Assembly (NCBI GenBank): GCA_001768235.1 | Contig: MENK01000035.1 | Location: 188,183-252,182 of the forward strand | Reading direction: 5' to 3' | DNA: 64,000 bases | DNA from: Bacteroidetes bacterium GWB2_32_14 | Lineage (GTDB): Bacteria > Bacteroidota > Bacteroidia > Bacteroidales > UBA12077 | Part shown: positions 2,563 through 42,226 of the stretch, piece by piece | How the letters are laid out: the number at the start of each line of letters is the position of its first letter | How positions within the stretch are numbered: position 1 is the stretch's first letter | Program-made: the position numbers and the translations under genes | The notes under the pieces: generated by a model | Seen by the model: only the letters and a program-made list of their open reading frames with translations | What the model was told of the DNA's origin: nothing | The model's database searches: none

Positions 2563-5500
2563 ATGTTCACTAATATGAGAAAATCAATCATAAAAATGTT
2601 GTCTGTTATTTTATTCGTAATTATAGCAACAACAGGCTTTTCGGCAGACAAATACTGGGTAAGTGGCAGTGGTTCGTGGAACGATACCAACCATTGGTCA
2701 GAAACCAGCGGGGGCAATCCCGGGGCTTCAATACCTACTCAATTCGATAATGTAATTTTCGATAACAATTCATTTTCCCAAAATGGCCAGCAGGTAATTA
2801 TAAAAGATATAGCCGTTTGTAATGATTTCCGATGGGAAGTTGAAAATGTTAAAGCCGAACTTAAAAGCAAATCTTATTTATTTAAAAGCATAACAAAATC
2901 TGAAATACAGGTATATGGTTCTCTGTTTATAAATGAAAATATAAATAATGAATTTTTTGGCGATATCGTTTTAAAAGGGGAGAATGAGAATGAAATTGTA
3001 ATTGAAAACAAAATAAATTCTGATATAATTATTTCTGCTAAAGACGGGAAATACTATTTGGAAGAACCATTAAATACGAATGGAAATATTAGTTTAATTC
3101 AAGGAAGTTTTATAACACAAAATCATAGAATTGAGTGTGAATCGTTTATAGGATCAGGAATAGAAAATAGAGAGCTTATTTTAGGCGAATCTAAAATTTA
3201 TACAAAAAGCTGGAATATTGAAGTATCAGAAAATATAGTTTTGAATTCAGGAGAATCTGTAATTTATTTTAAAGAAGATTTTTCGAAAAAGACATTTAAA
3301 ACAGGAGGATTAGAATATAATAAATTTTCGACAGCTGATGCAAAATCGGCATTTACATATACCGTAACAATTACAGATGTAACATGTAATGGAGCTGAAA
3401 ATGGTATAATAAAAGCTGATGTAACTTCAGGAGGAACGCAACCTTTTACGTATTCTTTATATGATAGTGATTTAATTCTCCTTCAATCATCTGGAGCTAT
3501 TAACAGTACTACATTTACCTTCAAACCTACTGCAGCGCCAGGTGTTTCTGGCGGTTCATATTTAGTAAGAATTAGAGATGCAGAAGGAACAATAAATGGA
3601 GGATTTTATTTTGTCTTCGAACCCGAAGTACTTAGTGCTGGATCTATATCTGTTCAAACACCATTATCTTGTTACGATGGTAGCGATGCAGCTTTAGAAG
3701 CATTTCCAACTGGTGGAACAGAACCTTATACATATGAATGGTTTATTCGATCTGGAGCTGTTTATGTTCCTATAGGACAAACTACAAAAATTGCTACTGG
3801 ATTAGCACAAGGGATATATCGAGTATTTGTCGATGATGCAAATTTTTGCGGACCAGAATATGTTCAGTTTGCCTTTACTAAACCACCAAGAAATGATAAC
3901 GAAATTCCACCACTTTTAGTTATTGATGATATTTCATCTACAAGTACTTGTTTTGGATTAAGTAATGGAACTATAACAATAACTGCTCATGGGGGTTCTG
4001 CCCCTTTAACATATGCTATTGTAAGAACAAGTGATTCTGATTCTTCAACAAATGCAATAGGAACGTTTACTGGTTTACAAGCAGACACATATAAAATTTA
4101 TGTTATTGATGATAATGGATGTACAAAACAAGGAGCTAATGAAACAATTATAGAAGTTCCTAATCCTACAGCAAGCATAACTCCTGATCCAGCAACAACT
4201 TGCCCTTCTGTAGGACTTATTTTAAATGGAAATCCTTTAGGAGGTTCTGGTACTTATACTACTCATGCATGGTCTGATGTTGGTTCAACATCATTAAATT
4301 TTACGAATATTCAATCACCAACCTTTACCAATGCTACATCTGGTAGTTATGCATTAACATATACTGTTACTGATAATAATGGTTGTATCGGAAGTGACAA
4401 TATTAATGTAACAGTAAAAGTATCGTCCGTAGCTCCAACGGGTGCAACAGTAGATAACAACAATTTTTGTCCTGGAGCATTTGCGAATATCACATTAAGT
4501 TATGTAGGCGGAACCTTAGGTACGGGAGCTGTAGCAAGATGGTATTCAGATGCAACGTTTACCACACTTGTAGGCACAGGTCAGAATTTAGTAATAGCAG
4601 CACCATTGGTAACGACAACCTATTATGTACGTTTCGAAGGCGATTGTAACAATACCACGGCCGCATCGGTAACAGTAACAGTAAAGACACAATCAACCGA
4701 CCCAACAAGCATAACAACAAGCAACAATAATTTTTGTCCTGGAGGATCAGGAACATTAACAGTAACAGGAGGTTCTTTAGGCACAGGAGCAAGCTGGAGA
4801 TGGTACAGTGGTAGTTGTGGAGGAACATTTATAGGCACAGGAGCCAGCATAAGTGTATCTCCGGCAACAACAACAACGTATTATGTACGGGCAGAAGGAG
4901 ATTGCAATACAACAGCATGTGCAAGTATAATCATAACAGTAAAAACACAATCAACGGCTCCAACAGGAATAACAGTAGTTGGAAATAATTACTGTCCCGG
5001 AGGTTCATCCACATTAACAGTAACAGGAGGTTCGTTAGGCACAGGAGCAAGCTGGAGATGGTATAGTGGCAGTTGTGGAGGAACATCAGTAGGTTCAGGA
5101 GCAAGTATAAGTGTTTCCCCTGTAGTAACAACAACATACTATGTACGGGCAGAAGGAGATTGTAATGTAACAACCTGTGCAAGTACAATTATAACAGTAA
5201 AAACAGCATCCGTAGCCCCAACGAGTGCGACAGTAGATAACAACAATTTCTGTCCCTTAGCATTTGCGAATATCACATTAACATATTCGGGAGGAAGTTT
5301 AGGCACAGGAGCTGTAGCAAGGTGGTATTCAGATGCAACATTTACCACGCTTGTAGGCACAGGTCAGAATTTAGTAATAGCTGCCCCGGCAGTAACAACG
5401 ACCTATTATGTGCGTTTCGAAGGCGATTGTAACAATACTACAGCCGCATCTGTAACAGTAACAGTAAAGACACAATCAACCGACCCAACAAGCATAACAA

Positions 5501-8500
5501 CAAGCAACAATAATTTTTGTCCTGGAGGTTCATCCACATTAACGGTAACAGGAGGTTCATTAGGAACAGGCGCGAGCTGGAGATGGTATAGTGGTAGTTG
5601 TGGAGGAACAGCGGTAGGAACGGGAAGTAGTATAAGTGTATCACCAATAATAACGACAACGTATTATGTGCGGGCAGAGGGAGATTGTAATACAACAGCT
5701 TGTGCAAATACAACAGTAACAGTAAAAGTATCGTCCGTAGCTCCAACGGGTGCAACAGTAGATAACAACAATTTTTGTCCTGGAGCATTTGCGAATATCA
5801 CATTAAGTTATTCGGGAGGAAGTTTAGGCACAGGAGCTGTAGCAAGGTGGTATTCAGATGCAACATTTACCACGCTTGTAGGCACAGGTCAGAATTTAGT
5901 AATAGCTGCCCCGGCAGTAACAACGACCTATTATGTGCGTTTCGAAGGCGATTGTAACAATACTACAGCCGCATCTGTAACAGTAACAGTAAAGACACAA
6001 TCAACCGACCCAACAAGCATAACAACAAGCAACAATAATTTTTGTCCTGGAGGTTCATCCACATTAACGGTAACAGGAGGTTCATTAGGAACAGGCGCGA
6101 GCTGGAGATGGTATAGTGGTAGTTGTGGAGGAACAGCGGTAGGAACGGGAAGTAGTATAAGTGTATCACCAATAATAACGACAACGTATTATGTGCGGGC
6201 AGAGGGAGATTGTAATACAACAGCTTGTGCAAATACAACAGTAACAGTAAAAGTATCGTCCGTAGCTCCAACGGGTGCAACAGTAGATAACAACAATTTT
6301 TGTCCTGGAGCATTTGCGAATATCACATTAAGTTATGTAGGCGGAACCTTAGGTACGGGAGCTGTAGCAAGATGGTATTCAGATGCAACGTTTACCACAC
6401 TTGTAGGCACAGGTCAGAATTTAGTAATAGCAGCACCATTGGTAACGACAACCTATTATGTACGTTTCGAAGGCGATTGTAACAATACCACGGCCGCATC
6501 GGTAACAGTAACAGTAAAAACAGAGTCAATTGCTCCAACAAGTGCATCAGTTGATCACACGAATTTCTGTGTTGGTGCATATGCAAATATTATACTTTCA
6601 TATACATTAGGAACTTTAGGAACGAATGCTACTGCAGAATGGTATTCAGATGCAGCTTTCACAATCCCCATTGGAACAGGACAAAATTTAAGTATTCCTG
6701 CTCCTTTGGTAACAACAACATATTATGTGCGTTTTGAAGGGGATTGTAATAATACGGCCGCTGCTAGTGTAACAGTAACCGTTTATCCAAATCCTACAGC
6801 AACAATTACTCCTGATCCTGCTATAACATGTACATTTGTTGATTTGAATCTTGATGGGAATCCTGCAGGAGGATCAGGAACTTATACAACACATTCTTGG
6901 ACAGGAGCAGATTTATCTCCATTAGACGATCCAAGCATTCAAAATCCAGTATTTAATTCCAATACAGCAGGTACATATAGCTTCACATATACAGTAACAG
7001 ATGATAATGGATGTACTGGTACTGACAATATTGATGTTGAAGTAAACAATTCTGCAACAGCTTATGCTGGAATGGATGTAACTTTATGTTATGATACTCC
7101 TTATCAAATTCTGGACGCAGATTCTGCAGATTGTTCTGGGATTAGCTGGTCCAGCGATGGTGGCGACGGTTCTTTTGATGATGTAAATTTAATAAATCCT
7201 ACCTACACACCCGGAGTAAATGATTTGTTAAACGGATTTGTTGATTTAGTTTTAACTGCACATGGGATTGCTCCATGTAGCGCTGTAACCGATACAGTAA
7301 GGATAAATTATTTACCAATACTTCGTGCAGCAATAGGAAAACCTTCTCCTTTTAAAATTGATTCAGTTATTACAGGTACTCCTACACATATAGAAGTTTA
7401 TGTTAAACTTTCAAGTCACGATTATGTTGCAAATCTTGGAGTCTATCTGGTTTCTCCTTTAGATTCAGTAGTAGAGTTAAAACCAAATTGTGAACTTTTA
7501 CCTACATTATGGCAGTCAGATGCTACATATAGATTCTATAATGATCCTTTAGATACATCTGCAACGGCTTTAGGAGTGATAGATGAATGTGATGCATTTT
7601 CTGGTACATATGAATTTTCTGGAGATTGGAAAAAATTACACGGACAAGATCCTTCTAATGGCGCTTGGAGAATTCGTGTTGTTGATTATGAGAATTGGGG
7701 AATTCCGGGTTTATTAGAGGAAGCAACAATAAAATTTTCTGATGAAAATAAAAATGCTGTTTTTGAATCTATTTTATATGCAGATTCTTCAATTAACAAA
7801 CCAATAAAAAGATATAGTGCTATTAATGGCCCTGGTATAACAGAACAAACTTTGACAATAACAGGGTTAACAACTTCATGTTTTGATTTATGCGACGCCA
7901 CCGCTGTTGTTACTGCAAATGGCGGACAACCTCCATATTTAACTTATGAATGGAGCGATGATATTAATTTTACAAATATTATTGCATTAACAGATACAGT
8001 TGAGACACTTTGTCCTGGGGTATATTATGCTCGTGTAACCGACTCAAATGGTTGTACAGCAATTGATTCTGTTACAGTTGGTTCGCCTCCTGAGATTCAT
8101 ATCACAAATTCAACTGTTGTTCATAATGTTTGCTATGGAGATTCTGTTGGTGAAGTAACCTTGGAATTCTCTGGCGGAACAGGTACTTTAACTTATACTT
8201 ACAATACCTATACTGGCGCTCCAAAAAATAGCGGGGAAACGTTCAACGAACTAAAAGCAGGGAGTTATTTGTTTACAATTACAGATGTCAGTGGTTGTAC
8301 AAAAGACACATTAATAACGATAACCGAGGGAATTCAGATTTCGGTTTCATATAATATTACCCCGGTAACCTGTAATGGAGGCAGTGATGGTGAAATTCAG
8401 ATTATTGCTTCCGGGGGTTTGGCTCCATATAATTATTCTATAACCAAAATTCCTGAATGGTCAAATACCACGGGTGTTTTTACAGGTTTAACAGGCGATT

Positions 8501-10635
8501 CGGTATATATTGCCGTTCGTGATGCCAATTTATGTATTGTATTTAGCGATACAGTTGAAATAACCGAACCCAGTCCAATATCCATTGATTTAATTGAAGC
8601 ATTCCCCGTGTCTTGTATTGGCGGCGGTTTTGATGGAGAAATAGTTGTTACTGCAAGTGGTGGTAAAGGAACATTGAGATATTCGCTCGATAATATTACA
8701 TTTCAGCCTTCAAACACTTTTATCGGATTAATAACCGGTACATATTCAATATATGTTGCCGATGATTGCGATACAGTTTCTGCAATAGATGCCGCTATAA
8801 TTACAGGCCCCATACCTATTGTTATTGACGTGGTTGTAATTACCGATGTGAACACCTGCTATGGTGATAATACCGGAACAATTACAGTTACTGCAAGCGG
8901 AGGAACCGGTAATTACGAATATTCAGTCGATAATGGCGTAAATTACCAGCCAGGGAATTTATTTACAGGGTTGTATGCCGGGCCATATTTTATTTCTGTA
9001 AGAGACGATGATGGTTGTACTAGTGCCGACAGTACCGTAAATATTAATCAACCCGACGAATTGCTTATAACTTCATATATTGTAACACATAGTTCTGAAT
9101 GTAATATCCCGGCAAATGTTGGAGAAATAGAAATTGTAACTGTAACCGGCGGAACACCGGGTTATCAATATGCTGTAACAGGGTATCCTTTACAAGCTTC
9201 GTCGGTATTTTCAGGATTAAGTGAAGGTAATTACACGATTACAGTTCAGGATGCAAATGGTTGCGAGGTTACTATTGATACATCGGTTGTTCTTAAACCG
9301 GCAATGTCTGTTGTTTTAGAAAAAGTGGATATCAGTTGCAACGGGTTAACCGATGGCAGCATATCTGTTGATATTAGCAATGGAACGCCTGCTTATACTT
9401 ATTTATGGAGCAATGGAGAAACTACTCCATCCATAAGTAATTTACCTGCTGGAACATATTCTGTTACGGTTACAGATAGTAATTTCCCTAACTCGTGCGT
9501 TGCAAATGAATCTGTAGAAATTATACAGCCGGATGCAATGCAAATAGCAATTAATTTAAAAGACAAATTTTGTATAAACAGCGACCCTAAAAACCCGGTA
9601 CTTGCAAATGGAGCGATAAATGTTGATCCAACCGGCGGTACACCCGCTTATACATATAGCTGGACCGGGCCTGGAGGTTATTCATCAACATCAGATTACA
9701 TTACAAACTTAGAACCCGGAACCTATTCGCTTACCATTACAGATAGCAGGGGTTGTATTCAAACGGTTGATACTATTATTGCCGAAGACGAAAGTTTTGA
9801 TATTGTAATTACTGTTAGCAGCGATACTAACACGATTTGTTCTTATGCTGATGGAGTTAATTTCGAAGTTAATTTTACAGCCGCAGACACGTTAATCTGG
9901 CAATATACTCCAACACAAGGAGTAGTACCTCCAAACGATACAATAGAGGTTTCTGTTAGCCCGTATTCGTTTACAGATTACCCGTTAATTTCAACAGAAT
10001 ATTTAGTTAAAGCATTGAACGAATATTGCGAGGATTATTATCCGGGTTCTTCAGCAGATCCAAAAGTATTTATTACTGTAAATCAGGGATTGGGACTTTA
10101 TATTACAGATAACAATGATGTTGAAATTGATACTGTAAAAATTAAGTTCGAAGGTACAGAAGAACTATACGGCAGGGTTTTAAATACAACTGTTTCTGCA
10201 ACATACAACTGGAATCCCACGATAGGAGTTGAAAACCCAATTTCACAGATTACTAAAATCACTCCTTCTGAATCGATGTGGTATTATTTAATTGGCGAGA
10301 GCAGCGATGGTTGTGTCGAAGCAGATTCGGTATATTTTAATTTTATCCCCGATGTTACACCATCCGATGGTTTTTCTCCTAATGGTGATGGTATTAATGA
10401 TTTCTGGTATATTCAGGAAATCGATAATTTCCCGAACAACGTGGTACAGGTGTTTAACCGTTGGGGTACCAAAGTGTTTTATCAGAAGGGATATTCCAAC
10501 TTAGACGAAAATAAGAGATGGGATGGAACAATTGAAAATGGAAAAGAATTACCTACAGGAACCTATTATTATATAATTAACCTGAACGAATCACAAGGAA
10601 CACCACAAACGGGTCCTGTAACAATTGTACGTTAA
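2563..10635 (+). CDS. Giant T9SS type B-sorted surface protein with SprB, Ig-like, PKD-like and P-domain modules
   Basis: This 2690-residue protein starts with a signal peptide (ATG at 2563 or 2575). The mature N-terminus reads 'YWVSGSGSWNDTNHWS', common to Bacteroidota gliding surface proteins. Modules in order: SprB-type repeats (about 270-530, for example 'VTCNGAENGIIKADVTSGG'); a PKD-like unit (about 535-620); nine Ig-like CHU_C-associated units of about 87 residues ('NNNFCPG...YYVRFEGDC', about 620-1408); a second PKD-like unit (1409-1495); a proprotein-convertase P-domain-like segment (about 1587-1727); about seven more SprB repeats (1767-2400); and a C-terminal gliding-associated/type B sorting domain ('DGFSPNGDGINDFWYIQEI' to 'TYYYIINL', about 2595-2690). 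It is predicted to be exported by T9SS and to act as an adhesin. The PorP/SprF gene starts one base after its stop. Confidence 0.93.
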   Translation: MFTNMRKSIIKMLSVILFVIIATTGFSADKYWVSGSGSWNDTNHWSETSGGNPGASIPTQFDNVIFDNNSFSQNGQQVIIKDIAVCNDFRWEVENVKAELKSKSYLFKSITKSEIQVYGSLFINENINNEFFGDIVLKGENENEIVIENKINSDIIISAKDGKYYLEEPLNTNGNISLIQGSFITQNHRIECESFIGSGIENRELILGESKIYTKSWNIEVSENIVLNSGESVIYFKEDFSKKTFKTGGLEYNKFSTADAKSAFTYTVTITDVTCNGAENGIIKADVTSGGTQPFTYSLYDSDLILLQSSGAINSTTFTFKPTAAPGVSGGSYLVRIRDAEGTINGGFYFVFEPEVLSAGSISVQTPLSCYDGSDAALEAFPTGGTEPYTYEWFIRSGAVYVPIGQTTKIATGLAQGIYRVFVDDANFCGPEYVQFAFTKPPRNDNEIPPLLVIDDISSTSTCFGLSNGTITITAHGGSAPLTYAIVRTSDSDSSTNAIGTFTGLQADTYKIYVIDDNGCTKQGANETIIEVPNPTASITPDPATTCPSVGLILNGNPLGGSGTYTTHAWSDVGSTSLNFTNIQSPTFTNATSGSYALTYTVTDNNGCIGSDNINVTVKVSSVAPTGATVDNNNFCPGAFANITLSYVGGTLGTGAVARWYSDATFTTLVGTGQNLVIAAPLVTTTYYVRFEGDCNNTTAASVTVTVKTQSTDPTSITTSNNNFCPGGSGTLTVTGGSLGTGASWRWYSGSCGGTFIGTGASISVSPATTTTYYVRAEGDCNTTACASIIITVKTQSTAPTGITVVGNNYCPGGSSTLTVTGGSLGTGASWRWYSGSCGGTSVGSGASISVSPVVTTTYYVRAEGDCNVTTCASTIITVKTASVAPTSATVDNNNFCPLAFANITLTYSGGSLGTGAVARWYSDATFTTLVGTGQNLVIAAPAVTTTYYVRFEGDCNNTTAASVTVTVKTQSTDPTSITTSNNNFCPGGSSTLTVTGGSLGTGASWRWYSGSCGGTAVGTGSSISVSPIITTTYYVRAEGDCNTTACANTTVTVKVSSVAPTGATVDNNNFCPGAFANITLSYSGGSLGTGAVARWYSDATFTTLVGTGQNLVIAAPAVTTTYYVRFEGDCNNTTAASVTVTVKTQSTDPTSITTSNNNFCPGGSSTLTVTGGSLGTGASWRWYSGSCGGTAVGTGSSISVSPIITTTYYVRAEGDCNTTACANTTVTVKVSSVAPTGATVDNNNFCPGAFANITLSYVGGTLGTGAVARWYSDATFTTLVGTGQNLVIAAPLVTTTYYVRFEGDCNNTTAASVTVTVKTESIAPTSASVDHTNFCVGAYANIILSYTLGTLGTNATAEWYSDAAFTIPIGTGQNLSIPAPLVTTTYYVRFEGDCNNTAAASVTVTVYPNPTATITPDPAITCTFVDLNLDGNPAGGSGTYTTHSWTGADLSPLDDPSIQNPVFNSNTAGTYSFTYTVTDDNGCTGTDNIDVEVNNSATAYAGMDVTLCYDTPYQILDADSADCSGISWSSDGGDGSFDDVNLINPTYTPGVNDLLNGFVDLVLTAHGIAPCSAVTDTVRINYLPILRAAIGKPSPFKIDSVITGTPTHIEVYVKLSSHDYVANLGVYLVSPLDSVVELKPNCELLPTLWQSDATYRFYNDPLDTSATALGVIDECDAFSGTYEFSGDWKKLHGQDPSNGAWRIRVVDYENWGIPGLLEEATIKFSDENKNAVFESILYADSSINKPIKRYSAINGPGITEQTLTITGLTTSCFDLCDATAVVTANGGQPPYLTYEWSDDINFTNIIALTDTVETLCPGVYYARVTDSNGCTAIDSVTVGSPPEIHITNSTVVHNVCYGDSVGEVTLEFSGGTGTLTYTYNTYTGAPKNSGETFNELKAGSYLFTITDVSGCTKDTLITITEGIQISVSYNITPVTCNGGSDGEIQIIASGGLAPYNYSITKIPEWSNTTGVFTGLTGDSVYIAVRDANLCIVFSDTVEITEPSPISIDLIEAFPVSCIGGGFDGEIVVTASGGKGTLRYSLDNITFQPSNTFIGLITGTYSIYVADDCDTVSAIDAAIITGPIPIVIDVVVITDVNTCYGDNTGTITVTASGGTGNYEYSVDNGVNYQPGNLFTGLYAGPYFISVRDDDGCTSADSTVNINQPDELLITSYIVTHSSECNIPANVGEIEIVTVTGGTPGYQYAVTGYPLQASSVFSGLSEGNYTITVQDANGCEVTIDTSVVLKPAMSVVLEKVDISCNGLTDGSISVDISNGTPAYTYLWSNGETTPSISNLPAGTYSVTVTDSNFPNSCVANESVEIIQPDAMQIAINLKDKFCINSDPKNPVLANGAINVDPTGGTPAYTYSWTGPGGYSSTSDYITNLEPGTYSLTITDSRGCIQTVDTIIAEDESFDIVITVSSDTNTICSYADGVNFEVNFTAADTLIWQYTPTQGVVPPNDTIEVSVSPYSFTDYPLISTEYLVKALNEYCEDYYPGSSADPKVFITVNQGLGLYITDNNDVEIDTVKIKFEGTEELYGRVLNTTVSATYNWNPTIGVENPISQITKITPSESMWYYLIGESSDGCVEADSVYFNFIPDVTPSDGFSPNGDGINDFWYIQEIDNFPNNVVQVFNRWGTKVFYQKGYSNLDENKRWDGTIENGKELPTGTYYYIINLNESQGTPQTGPVTIVR
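4408..4685 (+). repeat. 278-bp coding repeat, copy 1 (identical to 6241-6518)
   Basis: Reading both stretches base by base shows no difference over 278 bases, including synonymous positions. The offset is 1833 bases, which keeps frame. Each copy encodes one Ig-like unit of the type 'NNNFCPGAFANITLSYVGG'. Identity breaks at 4686 (g against a). Confidence 0.9.
5284..6333 (+). repeat. Two perfect tandem copies of a 525-bp (175-codon) unit inside the giant gene
   Basis: Copy 1 is 5284-5808 and copy 2 is 5809-6333; identity runs on to 6336. No mismatch was found by eye, even at third codon positions. One unit encodes two Ig-like domains, an 'ARWYSDATFTTLVGTGQ' type followed by a 'SWRWYSGSCGGTAVGTG' type. 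Because the unit is a multiple of three, gain or loss of a copy keeps the reading frame. It is either a very recent duplication or a homogenised one. Confidence 0.92.
6241..6518 (+). repeat. 278-bp coding repeat, copy 2 (identical to 4408-4685)
   Basis: This is the second exact copy of the Ig-like unit at 4408-4685. Its first 96 bases overlap the end of the downstream 525-bp tandem copy. A unit shared by two different repeat families in one array suggests gene conversion or unequal crossing-over within the array. Confidence 0.9.
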
Positions 10636-33156: not shown

Positions 33157-34494
33157 TTATTTAAATTTCTTAAGTATTGTTTTTATCTCATCAATTTTTT
33201 CTTTCAGTATTTTTTCGTTGTCGGCCTCGGCAAGTAGCCGAAGATAAGGTTCTGTATTTGAAGGGCGCACGTTAAACCACCAGTCTTTAAATTCTATTCG
33301 GTAACCATCAAAATCGAGAATTTCCATGGGTTCTTCTTCTGCTACAAAGTAATCTTTTAAAGCATCCATGGCTTCCTGCTTTTTCTCAATTTTAAAATTA
33401 AGTTCGCCCGAGTTGGCATATTTTGCAATGTTTGAGATTATTTCCGACATGCTTTTCCCTTCTTTTTTAAACCGTGAAAGAAGGTTTAAAACGATTAATG
33501 AAGCTAAAATACCCGAGTCGGAATAAAAGAAATCGCGGAAATAATAATGACCGGCAAGCTCACCACCATATATGCCGTTTATTTCTTTTAGCTTAGGAGA
33601 AGCAAAAGCTCGTCCAACACGCCACGTATGCATTTTGCATCCCATGTTTTCAACATATTCTTTTACTGCTTTTGATGTTCGGATATCTTCTAATACATTC
33701 CCTTTTTCTTTTTCAAGGAAATAATGAGCCATGAATCCGATAATCAGGTCGGGAGATATAAATTTACCTTTCTCATCAACAAACATAACCCGGTCGGCAT
33801 CGCCATCGAAAATAACGCCAATGTCGCATTTCTGATCAAGAACAACTTTCTTAAGATCGGCAACATTTTCTTCAATCAAGGGATTTGGCTCGTGATTTGG
33901 GAATGTTCCGTCCATATCGTCAAAAATGTAAATCGGGTCTTTGCCCAATAATTTTTTAATAAGTAAAGCAGCCATTCCGTTTGAGCAATCAATGGCCATT
34001 TTGATGTTTGAGTAATCCTGAATGTAGGTTTTCAGAAACTGAACATACTCGTCTTTTACTTTATAATCGATAATCTTTCCTCTTTTATCGGCTATCTCGA
34101 TTTCACGGGTCTGTATCATTTCCAGGAGCCTGTTTAAGCCGGTATCTAATCCGACAGGTAAAGCATTTGCCCGTGATATTTTCATCCCGTTGTATTCGCG
34201 TGAGTTGTGTGAAGCTGTAATCTGGACTGAAGCCGAGAACTTGTGTTTTGCTGTCATGTAATAAACCATGGGCGTGGTGGCAAGGCCAATGTTATAGACA
34301 TTTGCTCCGCTATCGATAATTCCCCGGGCGAGGGCTTCAAATATTTCATCTGACGAAACTCTTACATCCCGGCCAACAAGAACATTGTCGGCTTGTAAAA
34401 GTTCAGGCAAAAAGTACCCGATTTTATAGGCATCGTCTTTAGTAAACTCTTCGTTGTAAATACCACGAATATCATAGGCTTTGAATGCTTTCAT
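33157..34494 (-). CDS. Phosphomannomutase / phosphoglucomutase
   Basis: This 445-residue alpha-D-phosphohexomutase interconverts hexose 6- and 1-phosphates for sugar-nucleotide synthesis. The phosphoserine loop is 'SVQITASHNSREYNGMKI', with Ser in the place of the usual Pro after Asn. The metal loop is 'GVIFDGDADRVMFVDEKG', the sugar-binding loop 'GGELAGHYYFRDF', and the phosphate-binding loop 'VRPSNTEPYLRLLAEAD'. All four domains are present. It would feed the glycan genes in this window. Confidence 0.93.
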   Translation of the reverse strand: MKAFKAYDIRGIYNEEFTKDDAYKIGYFLPELLQADNVLVGRDVRVSSDEIFEALARGIIDSGANVYNIGLATTPMVYYMTAKHKFSASVQITASHNSREYNGMKISRANALPVGLDTGLNRLLEMIQTREIEIADKRGKIIDYKVKDEYVQFLKTYIQDYSNIKMAIDCSNGMAALLIKKLLGKDPIYIFDDMDGTFPNHEPNPLIEENVADLKKVVLDQKCDIGVIFDGDADRVMFVDEKGKFISPDLIIGFMAHYFLEKEKGNVLEDIRTSKAVKEYVENMGCKMHTWRVGRAFASPKLKEINGIYGGELAGHYYFRDFFYSDSGILASLIVLNLLSRFKKEGKSMSEIISNIAKYANSGELNFKIEKKQEAMDALKDYFVAEEEPMEILDFDGYRIEFKDWWFNVRPSNTEPYLRLLAEADNEKILKEKIDEIKTILKKFK

Positions 34495-34585: not shown

Positions 34586-35872
34586 TTATTTTGTTAAAGC
34601 TTTTACGGGTTCAATTCCTAAAGTTGTACCTTCCTGAATGGCTTTAAGCACAGCCCCGCCACCGGTAAAGATGTAATACTTAGGGCTGTCGAGGGCAACA
34701 ATATATAAACCGGGAAGTAACCGTTTTAATTCCTGCATGGTATCGCCACCGCCATATAACTTAACGGCTTCAATATTTTCATCGATAAGCTGGTCGAGAG
34801 CAATAGTTCCTTCGTTAAAATGTGGAGTAAATCCCATAACGGCATTAATAAAAACAGTTCGGGCAGAAGAGAATATTTTATGTATTCCTTCATCAGAGAA
34901 TGATTCTTTTGCTATATCGAGTACGTAGTTCAGTTTGATTCCGGGTTTTAAATCGGCGATTTTATGAACCCTGTATTTTCCTTCGAAATGACCTTCCATG
35001 GTATCAGATTCAACAATATAAGGAAGTTCAACAAGCTTATTTTTATACTGTGCAGCAAATTCAACAAATTTCTTGGCATGTTCCATATCATCCGGCTCTA
35101 TTCCTTTTATTTCGATACCATATTTGGCACAGAGGTATGCATTGTAAATAACACCGCCTAAAACAAGGTAGTCTGATTTTTTAAGAAGAGCATAAAGAGA
35201 ATCAATTTTTGTATCGAATTTGCTTCCGGCAACAACAGAAATAAAAGGTGATTGCGGGTGATAAATACGCTCGAGATTTTCTAATTCTTTTTGCATAAGA
35301 AACCCGGCATACGAAGGGAGGTATTTTGTAACGCCAACAGTTGATGCATGTGCCTGCCACGAACCAAAAGCATCGTTTACAAATATGTCGGCTAACCCTG
35401 CAAGTTGATTGGCAAAGCGGTCCTGATCGGCTCCTTTGGCTTCTTCGCCCTGAAACCAACGGGTATTGGGTAAGTAAATACCATCGATTTTGCTTTCGCG
35501 TAATTCGCGTATTAAATGATTGATGGATGTTTCGATACCCACATAACCCTTATTTTCTTCTGCATAAAATTCGGGAACCTTCATGTTGATATGCAACTTA
35601 TTTCGTAAATATTCAACGATTGGCTCAACGGATGAATCTTTTCCGATTTTTATTTCGCCAGTTTTTTTGTCTTTTGGCCTGCCAACATGGGTCATTAAAA
35701 TGATTTTGCCACCCCGGGCATTGATATGATAAAGTGTTCCAATGGTAGCATCTATTCGGTAAGGATCATGAATAATACCTTTTTTTACAACATTATGGTC
35801 AACTCTGACCAAAACAACTTTTCCATTCAGGTCGGCATCTTGCAACGACGGGATATTATATTTTTCAAGCAT
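34586..35872 (-). CDS. Divergent phosphoglycerate kinase paralogue
   Basis: This 428-residue protein has the Pgk fold. The N-terminal 'KVVLVRVDHNVVKKG' keeps the substrate loop, 'PYRIDATIG' keeps the Arg, 'VAGSKFDTKIDSLY' keeps the two Lys, and 'LYGGGDTMQELKRLL' keeps the GGGD nucleotide loop. But 'LPNTRWFQGEEA' replaces the usual ENLRF-HxxEE block, 'NDAFGSWQAHAST' lacks the usual HR before AHAS, and 'NAVMGFTPHF' replaces NGPIGVFE. Activity is therefore uncertain. The start at 35872 is chosen because a rare strong Shine-Dalgarno (GGAGGTGA) precedes it; an in-frame ATG 36 bases upstream is less likely. Confidence 0.82.
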   Translation of the reverse strand: MLEKYNIPSLQDADLNGKVVLVRVDHNVVKKGIIHDPYRIDATIGTLYHINARGGKIILMTHVGRPKDKKTGEIKIGKDSSVEPIVEYLRNKLHINMKVPEFYAEENKGYVGIETSINHLIRELRESKIDGIYLPNTRWFQGEEAKGADQDRFANQLAGLADIFVNDAFGSWQAHASTVGVTKYLPSYAGFLMQKELENLERIYHPQSPFISVVAGSKFDTKIDSLYALLKKSDYLVLGGVIYNAYLCAKYGIEIKGIEPDDMEHAKKFVEFAAQYKNKLVELPYIVESDTMEGHFEGKYRVHKIADLKPGIKLNYVLDIAKESFSDEGIHKIFSSARTVFINAVMGFTPHFNEGTIALDQLIDENIEAVKLYGGGDTMQELKRLLPGLYIVALDSPKYYIFTGGGAVLKAIQEGTTLGIEPVKALTK

Positions 35873-35882
35873 ATTCACCTCC
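35873..35882 (-). promoter_or_regulatory. Strong Shine-Dalgarno before the Pgk-like gene
   Basis: The minus strand reads GGAGGTGAAT directly before ATG (35872-35870). Such sites are rare in Bacteroidota, and no other start in this window was seen with one this strong. It fixes the start of the Pgk-like protein. Confidence 0.8.
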
Positions 35883-36039
35883 GGTTTTGGGTTATAGTAA
35901 GGAAACACAATTTAGTTTAAAATTGTGTTTTAAACAATAAAATTAAAGCGAATAAATTATGCGGGATTAACAAGTTTAATGAAAACCACTAAGCCGGTAC
36001 TTTATTTACTTTGCGTTTTTATTAATTTAACGGCTTTGA

Positions 36040-36720
36040 TTATTCAATCATTTTCTTAATGTTTTCTTCTTTGCCAATAACAATAAGAATATGATCTTTG
36101 GTTAGTTTTTCCTGTTCAAATCCCAGGTAGTTAATATTGTTATGATTATTTACGGGTTCATCAGGCAAAACTTTTTTCAAAGCAATAACATTTACATGGT
36201 AAATATTTCGAATCTGAAGTTCAATAATATTCTTGCCAATAAAATTCTCTGGTACCTTTACTTCTGTAATATAAACATTAGGAGCATATTCGTCTTTAAA
36301 AAGGAAATCGCGGTTAATGAGTTTTAATGCAAACCGTTTACCTTCTTCTTTTTCAGGGAAAAGAATTTCTGTATTCTTCATTTGTCCCAGAATCTCTTCG
36401 TGAATAATTTTTGTAGCCCGGGTATATATTTTTTTTACTTTTAGCCGGGTTAAAATACCAACAGTAATAATATTGTCTTCAAACGATTCTCCCATTGATA
36501 AAATAACAATGTCATCCGGGTTAACAAACCGCCCCAGTGAGGCTGCGTCTGTTGAGTCGAGTTGAACGGCATAATCAAATCCGTCGAGCTTCATTTGATT
36601 GATAACTTCCAGGCTTTTATCCATTACAATCATATCAATATGGTGATCTTTCAGAGTATAAGCTATTTCCTGGCCAAAAGCCCCCATTCCAATTAAAACA
36701 TACCGTTGAATATTTGCCAT
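36040..36720 (-). CDS. TrkA/KtrA-type potassium uptake regulator
   Basis: This 226-residue cytoplasmic protein starts with an RCK Rossmann domain: 'RYVLIGMGAFGQEIAYTLKD' (residues 6-25) and the acidic 'MIVMDKSLEVINQM', which bind nucleotide. A TrkA-C domain occupies about 140-226 ('VYITEVKVPENFIGKNIIEL'). It gates the TrkH-type channel encoded just upstream on the same strand (4-base gap). The two genes form an operon. Confidence 0.94.
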   Translation of the reverse strand: MANIQRYVLIGMGAFGQEIAYTLKDHHIDMIVMDKSLEVINQMKLDGFDYAVQLDSTDAASLGRFVNPDDIVILSMGESFEDNIITVGILTRLKVKKIYTRATKIIHEEILGQMKNTEILFPEKEEGKRFALKLINRDFLFKDEYAPNVYITEVKVPENFIGKNIIELQIRNIYHVNVIALKKVLPDEPVNNHNNINYLGFEQEKLTKDHILIVIGKEENIKKMIE

Positions 36721-36724
36721 AATT

Positions 36725-38473
36725 TTATATCATTAAAGTAGTGTCTGGAAAACGATAATTGTGTGATGTAATTTTCTCGGAAACAATTAATGCAAGGGTA
36801 AACATACCTATACGCCCGAAATACATTACAAATATAATAATTAATTTACCCCATCCGGAAAGGAACGGAGTAATGCCTCTTGATAATCCTACTGTTCCGA
36901 ATGCTGATACCGTTTCGAAAAAGAGATCGAAATAGGCCTGTTTTTCAGTAAGGGATAATAAGAAAAGAGCAGTAAAAATAAGGATAATAGAAGAAATTAA
37001 TACAATAAAAGCTCTTCGTATAAGAATCATTGGGATTGTTCTTCGTGCTAGTTCAATTCTTTCTTTTCCTTTAATAAACCCCCATAAACTAACAAAAAGG
37101 GTAACAGCCGTGGTTACTTTTATACCTCCGGCAGTTGAGTTTGGTGCTCCCCCAATATACATTAAGAAAATAACGATCATTAAAGGAGGAATTAACATGG
37201 TGCCGATTTCAACAACAGAAAATCCAGCGGTACGACTTGCAACACTTGTAAATAAAGAATTCATAATTTGTTTTCCCAGCGGGAGTTCACTCCATTGTTC
37301 TCTTTGAAGTACCCAGATTAAAAGAGCGCCAACAAATATGAGTACGATGTAAGATAAAATAACAATACGAGTTTGCAATTTTAGCCTTTGCCCGCGGGGG
37401 AAATTTTTCTTCCTGGGGTTGATAATATCCGAAATGGTATAAAATCCAAAACCGCCAGCAACAATAAGTATCATGATAACAATAAGTGCCGGGGCGAATG
37501 TGGAATATCCCGGAGTTTGTAATCCCTGTGGTAAATTGCTTAATCCTGCGTTGCAATAAGCACTTACTCCATGAAATACCGCTGTAAATATCCGGTCGAA
37601 ATCAGATAAGCCGGGATTATTCCATAGAAAATAGAGCAAAATAATTCCTGAAAATTCAAAGAAAAAGGTGATCTTGATAATATTCTTGAGCATGCTTGTC
37701 AACGAGGAAATATGAGCATCATCTAATATTTCGCCAACAACAAATTGATCCCGCAAGCGAAATCCTTTTTGTATAAAAAGGGTAATAAAAGCGGTAAGAG
37801 TTATCATTCCCAATCCACCAATCTGAATAAGTAAAATAATTAAAGACTGGCCCTGAATGGTAAACGTATCAGCAATATTTACAGTTGCCAATCCTGTAAC
37901 ACATACCGATGATGTGGAAATAAATAATGCATCAATCCATGAAATTGGAATTAATGTAGCTTTAGGTAGTTTAAGAAAACATGTACCGGCTATAATTACA
38001 AATAGAAAAGAAAAAGCAAAAACGCGTGCCGGATTTAAAGTAAAGAAGAATCCTTTTTCACGGCTGCGAATAAGTGTTAAAAGAGTATTAAATAAAATAT
38101 ATACCTGTGTAAAAATGAAATACGCCTTTATAAGATTATTCGTAAGTTTAAATGAAATAATATAGTGAGCAGAACTATAATTAAAAATCTGATAAAGGAT
38201 GACTATAAGAACAAATAAGGTTCCCAAAGTGAATTCAACAGGGTTTTCTTTAATATATTCAGCTTTAGAACGAATAAAGAAAAACTTAAAAGTAACCAAC
38301 ACAACAAATAAGGAAGCAATTATTTGATCAACATAGTTGTCCAGGATAAGTTGGGTTGTAGAGGGCAGATAAAATCCCAGTTGAGCAAAAATTGAAATAA
38401 AAGCCAACACACCGGTTACCAATGTAATCGTTTGTATTGTTTTATCTATTTTTAACCGTTTACCAGAAAACAT
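36725..38473 (-). CDS. TrkH/KtrB-type potassium uptake channel
   Basis: This 582-residue membrane protein has the TrkH pore fold after an N-terminal extension of about four helices (residues 15-160). Selectivity-loop regions are seen as 'STSSVCVTGLATVNI' (first), 'FHGVSAYCNAGLSNL' (second), 'VASRTAGFSVVEIG' (third) and 'TVSAFGTVGLSRGI' (fourth), each with the key Gly. It takes up K+ with the TrkA-type protein encoded downstream. The N-terminal extension is longer than in KtrB and is common in Bacteroidota. Confidence 0.94.
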   Translation of the reverse strand: MFSGKRLKIDKTIQTITLVTGVLAFISIFAQLGFYLPSTTQLILDNYVDQIIASLFVVLVTFKFFFIRSKAEYIKENPVEFTLGTLFVLIVILYQIFNYSSAHYIISFKLTNNLIKAYFIFTQVYILFNTLLTLIRSREKGFFFTLNPARVFAFSFLFVIIAGTCFLKLPKATLIPISWIDALFISTSSVCVTGLATVNIADTFTIQGQSLIILLIQIGGLGMITLTAFITLFIQKGFRLRDQFVVGEILDDAHISSLTSMLKNIIKITFFFEFSGIILLYFLWNNPGLSDFDRIFTAVFHGVSAYCNAGLSNLPQGLQTPGYSTFAPALIVIMILIVAGGFGFYTISDIINPRKKNFPRGQRLKLQTRIVILSYIVLIFVGALLIWVLQREQWSELPLGKQIMNSLFTSVASRTAGFSVVEIGTMLIPPLMIVIFLMYIGGAPNSTAGGIKVTTAVTLFVSLWGFIKGKERIELARRTIPMILIRRAFIVLISSIILIFTALFLLSLTEKQAYFDLFFETVSAFGTVGLSRGITPFLSGWGKLIIIFVMYFGRIGMFTLALIVSEKITSHNYRFPDTTLMI

Positions 38474-38596: not shown

Positions 38597-40984
38597 TTAT
38601 TCAATTCCGTCCTGAATAGCTTTAATTGCAGGCAGCTCTTTCCCTTCGATATATTCAAGCAAAGCGCCACCTGCTGTTGAAATATAACTCATTTTATGAG
38701 TAAGGCTGAATTTGTTTACTGCAGCAATAGAGTCGCCTCCACCGATTAACGAGAACGCACCTTTGTCGGTTGCTCGTGCTACAGCCATTGCAATTTTCAG
38801 TGTTCCCATTGAGAAGTTCGACATTTCAAAAACCCCAATAGGGCCATTCCACAATATGGTGGATGAATTCTCAATAACTTCGCAGAAATTATTAGCTGTT
38901 TTAATGCCAATGTCCATACCTTCCCATCCGTCTTTTATTTTATCAATTTCGCAATGTTCAATATTTGCATCGTTTTTAAAATCATCGGCAATAATGCAAT
39001 CAGTAGGCAGATAAAGATTTACGCCGTTTTCATGAGCCTTGTTCATGATTTGTTTTGCTGTTTCCATCTGGTCGGCTTCCAGTAACGATTTCCCAATATT
39101 GCCTCCCATTGCTTTTATAAAGGTATATGAAATGCCTCCTCCAATAATCAGGTTATCTACTTTCTCGAGTAAGGCAAGAATAATGTGTATTTTAGTTGAT
39201 ACCTTTGATCCTCCCAATATAGCAGTAAAAGGCTTTTTGGCATGTTTTAATACTTTGTCGATGTTGTTAATTTCATTTTCCACGAGATAGCCAAACATCT
39301 TATTTTCAGGAAAAAACCTGGCGATAGTATATGTTGATGCATGAGCCCTGTGGGCTGTACCAAAAGCATTAAATACATAAACATCACCTAATTCAGATAA
39401 CTGTCGGGCAAAGGTTTCGTCGGCTTGTGTTTCTTCTTTATGGAAACGAAGATTTTCAAGGAGAAGTACTTCTCCCGGCTTTAATTCATCTGCTTCTTTT
39501 TTAGCTTCAGCACCAATGCAATCGTTCACAAACTTGACTTTTTTATCGAGAACTTTTGATAAATAGGGAACAATGTGTTTAAGAGAAAGTTTTTCATCAT
39601 ATTGCCCTTTTGGACGGCCTAGGTGAGTTAAGTAAATGATTGAACCACCTTCTGCCAGAATCTTACGAGCCGTGGGTAATGCAGTAATTATCCGGGTAGT
39701 ATCTGTTATTTCGTTATTTTCGTTTAAGGGAACATTAAAATCAACACGCATGAGGACTTTTTTCCCTTCGAAGTTAAACTTGTCGATAGTAAGGTTTTGT
39801 TTTACCGCTTTAATCCCCGGCAATTCTTTTCCTTCTAAATATTCGAGCAAGGCTCCACCGGCTGTTGAAATATAACTTATTTTATGAGCAAGGCTGTATT
39901 TGTTTACAGCGGCAATGGAATCGCCGCCACCAATTAAGGAAAAAGCTCCTTTGTCTGTAGCCCGTGCAACCGACATGGCTACTTTAAGAGTTCCCATTGC
40001 AAAACTTGGCATCTCGAATACTCCGATAGGTCCATTCCACAATATTTTTGATGAATTTTCAATTACTTCTGCAAAACGATTTGCCGATTTTATTCCAATG
40101 TCAAGTCCCATCCAGCCATCGGGAATTTTATCAATTTCGCAATGATCGATCTCTGCATTGTTTTTAAACTCGTTGGCAATAACACAGTCTGTTGGTAAAT
40201 AGAGTTTTACCTTATTTTTTTCAGCCAGTTTTATAATCTGTTTTGCAAAATCGAGAAAGTCTTCTTCAACTAAAGAAGACCCTATTTTACCCCCCATGGC
40301 TTTAACAAATGTAAAAGCAATTCCCCCTGCAATAATCAGGTTATCTGCTTTTTCGAGAAGAGCTTCAATAATATGAATTTTTGTTGAAACTTTAGATCCT
40401 CCAAGTATTGCTGTAAAAGGGTGTGATGGTTGATTTAAGATTTTATCTATATTTTGTATTTCGTTTTCAATCAAATATCCAAACATGCGATCTTTAGGGA
40501 AGAATTTTGCAATGGTAAAAGTAGATGCATGAGTCCTGTGGGCAGTACCAAATGCATCGTTTATGTATACATCGCCAAGTCTGGCTAATTTGCCGGCAAA
40601 TTCTTCGTTTGCATCGGTTTCTTCTTTATGAAACCGTAAATTCTCAAGTAATAAAACGTCTCCGGGTTTTAATTTCCCGGCCAGTTCTTCGGCTTCTGTT
40701 CCAATACAATTTGCTGCAAACTTAACTTCCCGATCAAGAACTTTTGTTAAATAAGGAAGGATAATTTTCAACGACATCTTCTCGTTGTATTGTCCTTTTG
40801 GACGGCCCAAGTGTGTTAATAAAATGATAGATCCTCCTTCAGAAATAATTTTCATCAGGGTTGGTATGGCTGTAGTTATTCGTGTTGTATCGGTGATTTC
40901 AAGTTTTTCATTTAATGGTACATTAAAATCAACTCGTATAAGAACTTTTTTACCTGAAAAATTGTAATTATCAATTGAATACAT
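38597..40984 (-). CDS. pgk: Tandem phosphoglycerate kinase: two complete Pgk enzymes fused in one polypeptide
   Basis: This 795-residue protein holds two full Pgk sequences, residues 1-397 and 398-795, joined with no linker and about 70% alike by eye. Each half has the substrate loop ('VDFNVPLNE'), the Arg (R35, R431), '[10 protein letters not shown]', '[12 protein letters not shown]', the Lys pair (K198/K202, K594/K598), 'WNGPIGVFE' and the GGGDS nucleotide loop (352-356, 748-752). The second half differs at the normally fixed 'NDAFG' block: N142-D143 become F538-N539. Pgk catalyses 1,3-bisphosphoglycerate + ADP to 3-phosphoglycerate + ATP and is normally a monomer of about 395 residues. The join looks like loss of the stop codon after a tandem duplication. 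The nearby gene at 34586 is a third, divergent Pgk. Confidence 0.95.
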
Positions 40985-41098: not shown

Positions 41099-42226
41099 AT
41101 GCTTTTTAAAGAAATTGTAGGTCAAAAAGATGTAAAAGAAAAGCTGATTCAAACAGTTAAAGATAACAGGGTTAGTCATGCTCAGTTGTTTCTTGGCCCC
41201 GAGGGATCGGGTAAGCTGGCTCTTGCACTTGCATACGCGCAATATATTTGTTGTAACAACAGGCTTGAGAATGATTCGTGTGGAGTTTGCCCATCATGCC
41301 TGAAATTTGGAAAACTTGTACATCCCGATTTGCATTTTGTTTTTCCTGTAGCAACATCAAAAACAATAAAAAAAGATCCTGTAAGCGATGATTATATTTC
41401 GCAATGGCGTGAGGCAATTATCGAAAATCCGTACATCAGCCAAACAAGATGGTATGAAATTATAGATGTTGAAAATAAACAGGGCCTTATAAGCAAATTC
41501 GAAAGTAACGAGATTTTACGAAAACTGAATTTAAAAACATTTGAAGCCGATTATAAAATCTTAATCATGTGGTTGCCCGAGAAAATGAATGCTTCCGCGG
41601 CAAATAAGTTATTAAAAATGATTGAAGAACCACCTTCAAAAACACTGTTTATATTAGTTTCAGAAAACTCTGAACAAATTATCACAACAATTTTATCACG
41701 TACTCAGCTTATCAAAATTCCAAAAATTGATCAACAGAGTATGCATACTGCTATATGCGATCGTTTTGGCCTTTCTCCCGATAAAGCAACCGATATAATT
41801 CATTTAGCTAACGGCAGTTACCTGAATGCCCTTAATTTATTAAATACCGAAGAAGAAAATAATGATAATTTTGAGTATTTTATAGAACTCATGCGGCATT
41901 GTTATCAAAATAAAGTAATCGAGATTATCGAATGGGTTGAAAAGATTTCAACCTTTGGCCGCGAAAAACAAAAAAACTTCCTGGAATATGCTATTCGAAT
42001 GATTCGTGAAAACTTTATGCTTAATCTTAACCGGAAAGAGATTGTTTTTTTAACTAAAAAGGAATCCGGGTTTTCTGAAAAGTTTTCTCCATTTATTAAT
42101 AACAGCAATGTTTATTTAATTTATGAGAACCTGAATAAAGCTCATGCAGATATTGAAATGAATGCGTACAATAAAATAGTATTTTTAGACCTGGGATTAA
42201 AACTTGTGAAATTGATAAATAAGTAA
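41099..42226 (+). CDS. holB: DNA polymerase III subunit delta'
   Basis: This 375-residue clamp-loader subunit has the AAA+ Walker A-like loop 'LFLGPEGSGKLALALA' (about residues 31-46) and a zinc-binding Cys cluster in 'CCNNRLENDSCGVCPSCLKF'. 'IMWLPEKMNASAANKLLKMI' is the Walker B/sensor region, 'EEPPSKTLFILVSE' follows, and 'TILSRTQLIKIPK' holds the sensor Arg. It loads the sliding clamp during replication. It heads a run of co-directional genes. Confidence 0.92.
   Translation: MLFKEIVGQKDVKEKLIQTVKDNRVSHAQLFLGPEGSGKLALALAYAQYICCNNRLENDSCGVCPSCLKFGKLVHPDLHFVFPVATSKTIKKDPVSDDYISQWREAIIENPYISQTRWYEIIDVENKQGLISKFESNEILRKLNLKTFEADYKILIMWLPEKMNASAANKLLKMIEEPPSKTLFILVSENSEQIITTILSRTQLIKIPKIDQQSMHTAICDRFGLSPDKATDIIHLANGSYLNALNLLNTEEENNDNFEYFIELMRHCYQNKVIEIIEWVEKISTFGREKQKNFLEYAIRMIRENFMLNLNRKEIVFLTKKESGFSEKFSPFINNSNVYLIYENLNKAHADIEMNAYNKIVFLDLGLKLVKLINK

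Follow-up and report, generated by a model that had tools for sequence, protein, structure and literature searches.

Phosphoglycerate kinase (PGK) is a textbook example of a single-chain, hinge-bending enzyme. The locus described here raises the question of what it means when one gene encodes this enzyme twice in a row: whether the doubling is real, where it came from and whether both copies still work. In the window (the whole stretch of 64,000 nucleotides that was analysed), positions 38597-40984 on the minus strand hold a frame of 795 codons, running from ATG to stop with no internal stop codon. The Pfam PGK model PF00162 (cut-off 27 bits) matches the product twice, each time across model positions 1-379 of 379, with 508.2 bits for half 1 (residues 1-396, 39797-40984, minus strand) and 509.9 bits for half 2 (residues 397-795, 38600-39796, minus strand). 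The C-terminal end of half 1 joins the N-terminal start of half 2 directly. An earlier note on this DNA had proposed two full PGKs in one 795-residue frame with no linker between them, and this description was borne out. Its estimate of halves about 70% alike was close, alignment giving 73.7% protein identity and 71.2% DNA identity. The pS between the halves was 0.72, with synonymous sites close to saturation.

A free second half made from an internal start was considered and rejected. At the 31 junctions read (23 tandem sequences plus 8 loci, L138 repeating L035) no start codon is conserved: ATG occurs only in L137, as the fourth residue of half 2, TTG in G007 and G013 and GTG in L036, and the junction of the window gene contains none of the three. 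Recent gene conversion between the halves was rejected for the window genome, where the longest identical DNA tract measures 20 bases; longer tracts were found elsewhere (50 bases in G077, 34 in L035 and 32 in G010).

The distribution of the layout was assessed in nested samples of genomes. Within the genus, 19 of 20 genomes carry the tandem, including that of the window; in G005 the frame runs off the contig end, and the exception is G001. A query spanning the junction matched 19 of 393 genomes of the order, in 10 of 207 genera. By their frames these matches are 15 tandems, two of them cut by contig ends (G033 and G180), and four half-decayed derivatives (genus g83, family f82). In a sample of the class (395 genomes) the only full-length junction match was the window's own genome, with one further, partial match to a 432-codon frame, and in a sample of the phylum (395 genomes) the window's own genome was the sole match; both overlap the order sample in part. 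A peptide-pattern scan of a one-genome-per-species collection (84,980 species) placed four tandems (L033-L036), carried by Bacteroidetes or Bacteroidales MAGs, among the best 80 of 91 relatives. Another candidate fusion, the 768-codon frame L098, was rejected: its N-terminal part is Arg/Ala-rich by eye and resembles an open frame arisen by chance in GC-rich DNA. In total the tandem layout was found in 30 genomes of six families, and the f82 derivative in four genomes of a seventh.

The tandem PGK is thus real, conserved and uncommon, and confined to scattered lineages of one order in the samples searched. The earlier note had called the form unusual and would have taken it as refuted had the layout been common and described across the phylum; the layout is uncommon in these samples, and no description of a PGK-PGK fusion appeared in the full-text literature searched, mainly open papers and mostly by titles and abstract openings. 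As far as that search shows the architecture is undescribed, while the enzyme itself is very well known. Duplication during assembly, which the note had thought unlikely, was rejected given the diverged halves, their near-saturated synonymous sites and the recurrence of the layout, and the probability left to any assembly or sequencing artefact is negligible.

The origin of the fusion was approached through trees and gene neighbourhoods. In a tree with 46 single PGKs (19 from order relatives, 22 drawn at random from 44 other Bacteroidota-side rows and 5 from Firmicutes), 36 tandem halves and two f82 rows grouped in one branch that excluded every single PGK (SH-aLRT 99). With 22 more singles and seven near-identical rows dropped, the remaining 34 + 2 rows again stood together (SH-aLRT 98). 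The halves came from 19 genomes, eight of them from the 19 of the genus, and the trees were quick ones without bootstrap. First and second halves intermingle by lineage, for example in G057 and G170 (support 95–96). This lineage-wise grouping fits a single fusion after which the halves partly converted each other, or repeated duplication; the 50-base tract of G077 accompanies the gene-conversion reading.

Upstream, the tandem is divergent from holB (DNA polymerase III delta', 41099-42226, plus strand, identified by domain search). The arrangement recurs in each of the 18 further genus genomes with a tandem, as well as in G057, L035 and G106; holB was not found in the 15-kb stretches around the tandem of G170 or the f82 gene of G105. 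Among 12 single PGKs examined, four lie beside holB (L037, L039, L072 and L075) and the other eight showed no holB nearby. From its place divergent to holB, shared with these four singles, the tandem gene most likely represents the canonical pgk of the lineage itself. An ancestor within the order would have gained a second copy of this gene by duplication at the same site, the two copies being fused head to tail, presumably once, with partial gene conversion between the halves afterwards. On the other side of the tandem, domain searches identified a TrkH-family potassium transporter (36725-38473, minus strand), a TrkA-like subunit (36040-36720, minus strand), then a second PGK gene and, downstream of that, a phosphoglucomutase/phosphomannomutase (33157-34494, minus strand). 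Further away, a very long open frame of 2690 codons was observed at 2563-10635 of the window. A look for 16S sequence in the window's own genome gave no match.

Residue-by-residue alignment was used to judge whether the two halves could be active. Both window halves carry Arg17, Asp19, Asn21, Arg35, His58, Arg61, Arg117 and Arg150, as well as Lys198, Lys202, Asn317, Glu324 and Asp355 (numbering of half 1), in agreement with the earlier remark that both keep the Arg and the Lys pair. The nucleotide residues of human PGK, which we take to be Lys215, Lys219, Asn336, Glu343 and Asp374, are matched in both halves. So are all seven residues given for 3-phosphoglycerate in the accessible text on the human enzyme (Asp23, Asn25, Arg38, His62, Arg65, Arg122 and Arg170; PMC3900376). 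The comparison was widened to 95 single PGKs, 14 PGKs of the second type from the genus and 23 tandems, some of them truncated at contig ends; nine tandem genomes were added afterwards (G209 and G247 repeat L035 and L036). Across the tandems neither half departs from the substrate and nucleotide residues checked, bar a His58 to Ser change in the first half of G170. Both halves would accordingly be expected to transfer phosphate between 1,3-bisphosphoglycerate and ADP.

Differences were found at other conserved sites. At 81 positions the 95 singles are at least 95% conserved, and seven of these were flagged as different in the tandem, two of them (199 and 328) mildly and partially. The other five concern the NDAFG loop (two positions), a methionine and two glycines. 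The pair Asn142-Asp143 of NDAFG is intact in 92 of 95 singles (Asn in 92, Asp in all 95). In the window protein it is intact in half 1 (40556-40561, minus strand) and replaced by Phe538-Asn539 in half 2 (39368-39373, minus strand), which reads FNAFG; the earlier note had read these letters correctly. From this it had thought one half in particular possibly altered, a reading that the relatives do not support. A hand count over 29 distinct tandems with data showed the pair intact in four first halves and in no second half, the window genome being one of those four, so the loss appears there in half 2 only. At the Asp143 position first halves have Asn in 19, Asp in six and Glu in four cases, second halves Asn in 27 and Asp and Glu in one each. 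The second half as the sole altered half is therefore unsupported.

Gly375, a glycine in all 95 singles, has given way to Ala in 29 of 30 first halves and in every one of the 29 second halves; in the window these are Ala375 (39860-39862) and Ala771 (38672-38674), both on the minus strand. Met222, likewise fixed in the 95 singles, has become Ile in 29 of 30 first halves and in 28 of 29 second halves (Leu in G180), the window residues being Ile222 (40319-40321) and Ile618 (39131-39133), again on the minus strand. The second type of PGK keeps Gly at position 375 in all 30 rows and has Ile at position 222 in 14 of 14 genus rows and 28 of 30 wider rows, so that Ile222 may not reflect any special adaptation. 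At position 390, tandem halves frequently have Ser or Ala instead of Gly.

Two of these sites can be placed on human PGK1. The mutagenesis oligonucleotide for D164V spells the NDAFG motif, which identifies its Asp as D164; the amides of F188, L189 and M190, at the start of helix 7, donate hydrogen bonds to the D164 side chain (PMC3279470, accessible text, here and below). By homology with PGK1 this Asp probably caps the hinge helix, and it is not among the substrate residues named in the accessible text of the cited papers. The change from Asp to Val at this position causes human PGK1 deficiency: with MgATP the kcat of D164V is 27.9 against 553.2 per second, about 5% being kept, the Km for 3-phosphoglycerate is 1.07 mM against 0.17 mM, and the half-life at 37°C is 10'50'', the wild type being stable (PMC3279470). 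Halves without the Asp could hence be slow, although the natural change to Asn should be milder than Val, since Asn can still accept such bonds. The altered glycine corresponds to human Gly394, named together with Glu192 as a hinge point in the accessible text of a simulation study (PMC3900376); that study proposes mutating Gly394, as an added side chain would abolish or measurably alter allostery. Glu192 corresponds to Glu175 and Glu571 of the tandem and is invariant in five tandems. Changes at these elements may alter domain closure, in speed, affinity or stability.

A structure of the tandem predicted from 37 sequences (pLDDT 89.4) agrees with this placement, with predicted helices adjoining the altered sites: helix 7 (by homology) at 170-183 and 566-579, and helix 14 at 376-383 and 772-779. 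One half of the model aligns to the solved PGK 1php over 393 columns at 1.2 Å rmsd. The relative placement of the two halves is not reliable at a pTM of 0.58. Judging from conserved columns, the 32 single PGKs in the alignment probably lie on half 1, so that half 2 of the model rests mainly on five sequences; an earlier prediction from five sequences was poor (pLDDT 65.8, pTM 0.39).

Selection on the halves was compared within the genus. Over 153 pairs from 18 genomes, median dN/dS was 0.050 for first halves and, over as many pairs, 0.047 for second halves; the second type of PGK gave 0.029 (14 genomes, 91 pairs). All are rough values because dS is near saturation in many pairs. The dN of first and second halves had a median ratio of 0.96, showing that both are under equal purifying selection. 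Relative to the second type of PGK, dN was higher in 90 of 91 pairs for first halves and in 91 of 91 for second halves, with median ratios of 1.76 and 1.63 (91 genome pairs). This greater amino-acid change also fits relaxed constraint on the tandem halves.

In family f82 one half has decayed. The derivative (L148-L151; G208, G105, G296 and G362) has 639–654 codons, with a degenerate PGK C-domain before a complete PGK. Its first half is a remnant without the 3-phosphoglycerate domain, in which Lys202 has become Gln and GGGDS has become DGDDT; the full half retains the N-D pair. Over six pairs from the four genomes, dN/dS was 0.057–0.077 for the remnant and 0.007–0.011 for the full half. In a C-domain tree the f82 first half fell inside the tandem clade on a very long branch (4.39), which makes its origin from a tandem likely, not proven. 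Of the four first-half rows, the dN/dS analysis used all, the C-domain tree three and the residue table three (G296 absent). A remnant that is decayed and still under selection suggests that an attached half can matter beyond catalysis.

The same data bear on a division of labour, in which the second half would be catalytically weak and serve the first in a regulatory or structural way. The window genome itself invites this idea, with N-D in half 1 and F-N in half 2, and so do the absence of an intact pair from all 29 second halves, the severe impairment of human D164V and the f82 gene, where a half has decayed while under selection. The two halves are, however, equally constrained and equally divergent in amino acids, and both keep the substrate residues; the pair is lost in 25 of 29 first halves as well, and the half that decayed in f82 is the first, not the second. 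We regard a division of labour as improbable, roughly a one-in-a-handful chance.

Whether the tandem is the only PGK of the cell, which the earlier note could not see, was answered by the window itself. The second PGK gene, a divergent single PGK of 440 residues, here called D-type, lies at 34586-35908 on the minus strand, 2.7 kb from the tandem (PF00162, 275 bits). In all 14 genus rows Gln stands in place of the Arg of HRAHS and the alignment has a gap at the Glu of GPxGxFE; both changes recur in 30 of 30 rows (27 distinct) from several families. In the order sample D-type genes were found in 52 of 393 genomes, 17 of the 19 with a tandem-type gene against 35 of 374 others, apparently from the same draw of genomes as the tandem counts; in the class sample, at E 1e-90, only the window's own genome of 295 has one. 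The two tandem-type genomes of the order without a detected D-type are G180 (83% complete) and G184 (95%). A Fisher test of the association by genome (p 1.2e-14) ignores relatedness and carries no weight, and shared descent could explain why each of the seven families with a tandem-type gene also belongs to the 21 in which a D-type occurs.

In the sister genus g2 the D-type is the only PGK in all four genomes with a match, next to holB; a fifth genome (57% complete) gave no PGK match. In G001, the genus member without a tandem, a decayed stretch between holB and trkH (L237:6142-6512) matches the last 37 residues of the tandem in two collinear pieces, with at best 25.8 bits against the window protein and 27.7 against L036, the maximum in 200 shuffles being 22.3. 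On this sequence evidence G001 has lost the tandem, leaving a remnant of the gene's 3' end. Another 31 genomes have a D-type and no tandem; in 11 of them the D-type is the only PGK, and 20 carry a canonical single PGK as well. The singles of D-bearing genomes (L188-L190 and L207-L226, being these 20 and three others) read NDAFA for NDAFG in 20 of 23 rows and form a distinct group beside the tandem clade (22 rows, support 89). Glyceraldehyde-3-phosphate dehydrogenase (GAPDH) was found in 14 of 15 genomes, namely 12 of 13 D-only genomes (the exception being G071; G085 and G150 were left out of the check), G001 and the window's own. With the D-type as sole PGK and a GAPDH present, the D-only genomes, some of them incomplete, appear to run lower glycolysis on the D-type. 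That a D-type lacking two usual active-site residues replaces PGK is read from genomes alone. Since the g2 genomes yielded no PGK other than the D-type, the D-type would be able to carry glycolysis by itself, with the tandem probably an accessory enzyme.

The tandem coexists with the D-type in most genomes, and close relatives with a retained D-type lack it. Such a distribution could reflect a neutral fusion, a chance duplication in place that was tolerated because the D-type covers glycolysis and is now drifting or being lost. The decayed remnant in G001, the absence from genus g2, protein change faster than that of the D-type and the patchy spread over 10 of 207 genera would all be expected of it. 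A fusion without function should not have kept a stop-free frame in 19 of 20 genus genomes (running off the contig in G005), a dN/dS of about 0.05 and the same replacements in both halves, and we hold this account, too, to be unlikely, a little below the division of labour. If the D-type can apparently replace the tandem, and the halves share their changes, the protein might instead have moved to another substrate or a non-glycolytic role. This is very hard to reconcile with the retained substrate and nucleotide residues and with a modelled half that fits 1php as closely as given above, and only a slight chance is assigned to it.

The interpretation we favour, with reasonable though not strong confidence, is that of two PGKs covalently joined in one chain, both with a working active site and an altered hinge, accessory to the D-type. 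A bolder version is speculative and we put its chance at about one in four: the hinge would be retuned in both halves, the joined domains would close cooperatively without the Asp cap, and the f82 gene would carry a regulatory pseudo-PGK domain. If true, the tandem would amount to an experiment of nature on the requirements of the two-domain PGK hinge, both copies being changed at hinge-mapped elements, the D164-equivalent Asp and the Gly394-equivalent Gly. Natural tandem enzymes could serve to test the roles of these residues, and in some relatives lower glycolysis seems to depend on a divergent PGK without two usual active-site residues.

Among known systems, the PGK-TIM of Thermotoga maritima likewise joins PGK to another glycolytic enzyme domain (PMC7729029, accessible text, here and below), the partner in the tandem being a second PGK and not triosephosphate isomerase (TIM). 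Pfam found no TIM domain in the tandem and matched PGK in two stretches only; PF06962 gave a weak whole-protein match with no stretch passing. The NCBIfam equivalog for bifunctional PGK/TIM, NF010569, is nevertheless exceeded, with a score of 1023.6 over a cut-off of 883, since this score sums two PGK stretches and is best on profile positions 4-393 of 645. The PGK/TIM label was therefore rejected, and automatic annotation may mislabel tandem PGKs in this way. Dimeric and tetrameric archaeal PGKs also have several PGK units per particle (PMC7729029), but theirs are separate chains, whereas the tandem units are covalently joined. Among kinetoplastids, multidomain and 'dead' PGKs combine fused domains with the loss of some residues, for which the f82 remnant half offers a comparison; their partners include PAS, cyclic-nucleotide-binding, calmodulin-binding and transmembrane domains and a TIM fragment, and no PGK-PGK fusion is named in the accessible text of that 2020 review, in which the string 'Bacteroid' does not occur (PMC7729029). 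With the canonical monomeric PGK (1php of Bacillus stearothermophilus; PF00162) each tandem half shares the fold and the substrate residues, and the tandem differs from it in having two copies per chain, with the N-D pair mostly lost, Gly changed to Ala and Met to Ile.
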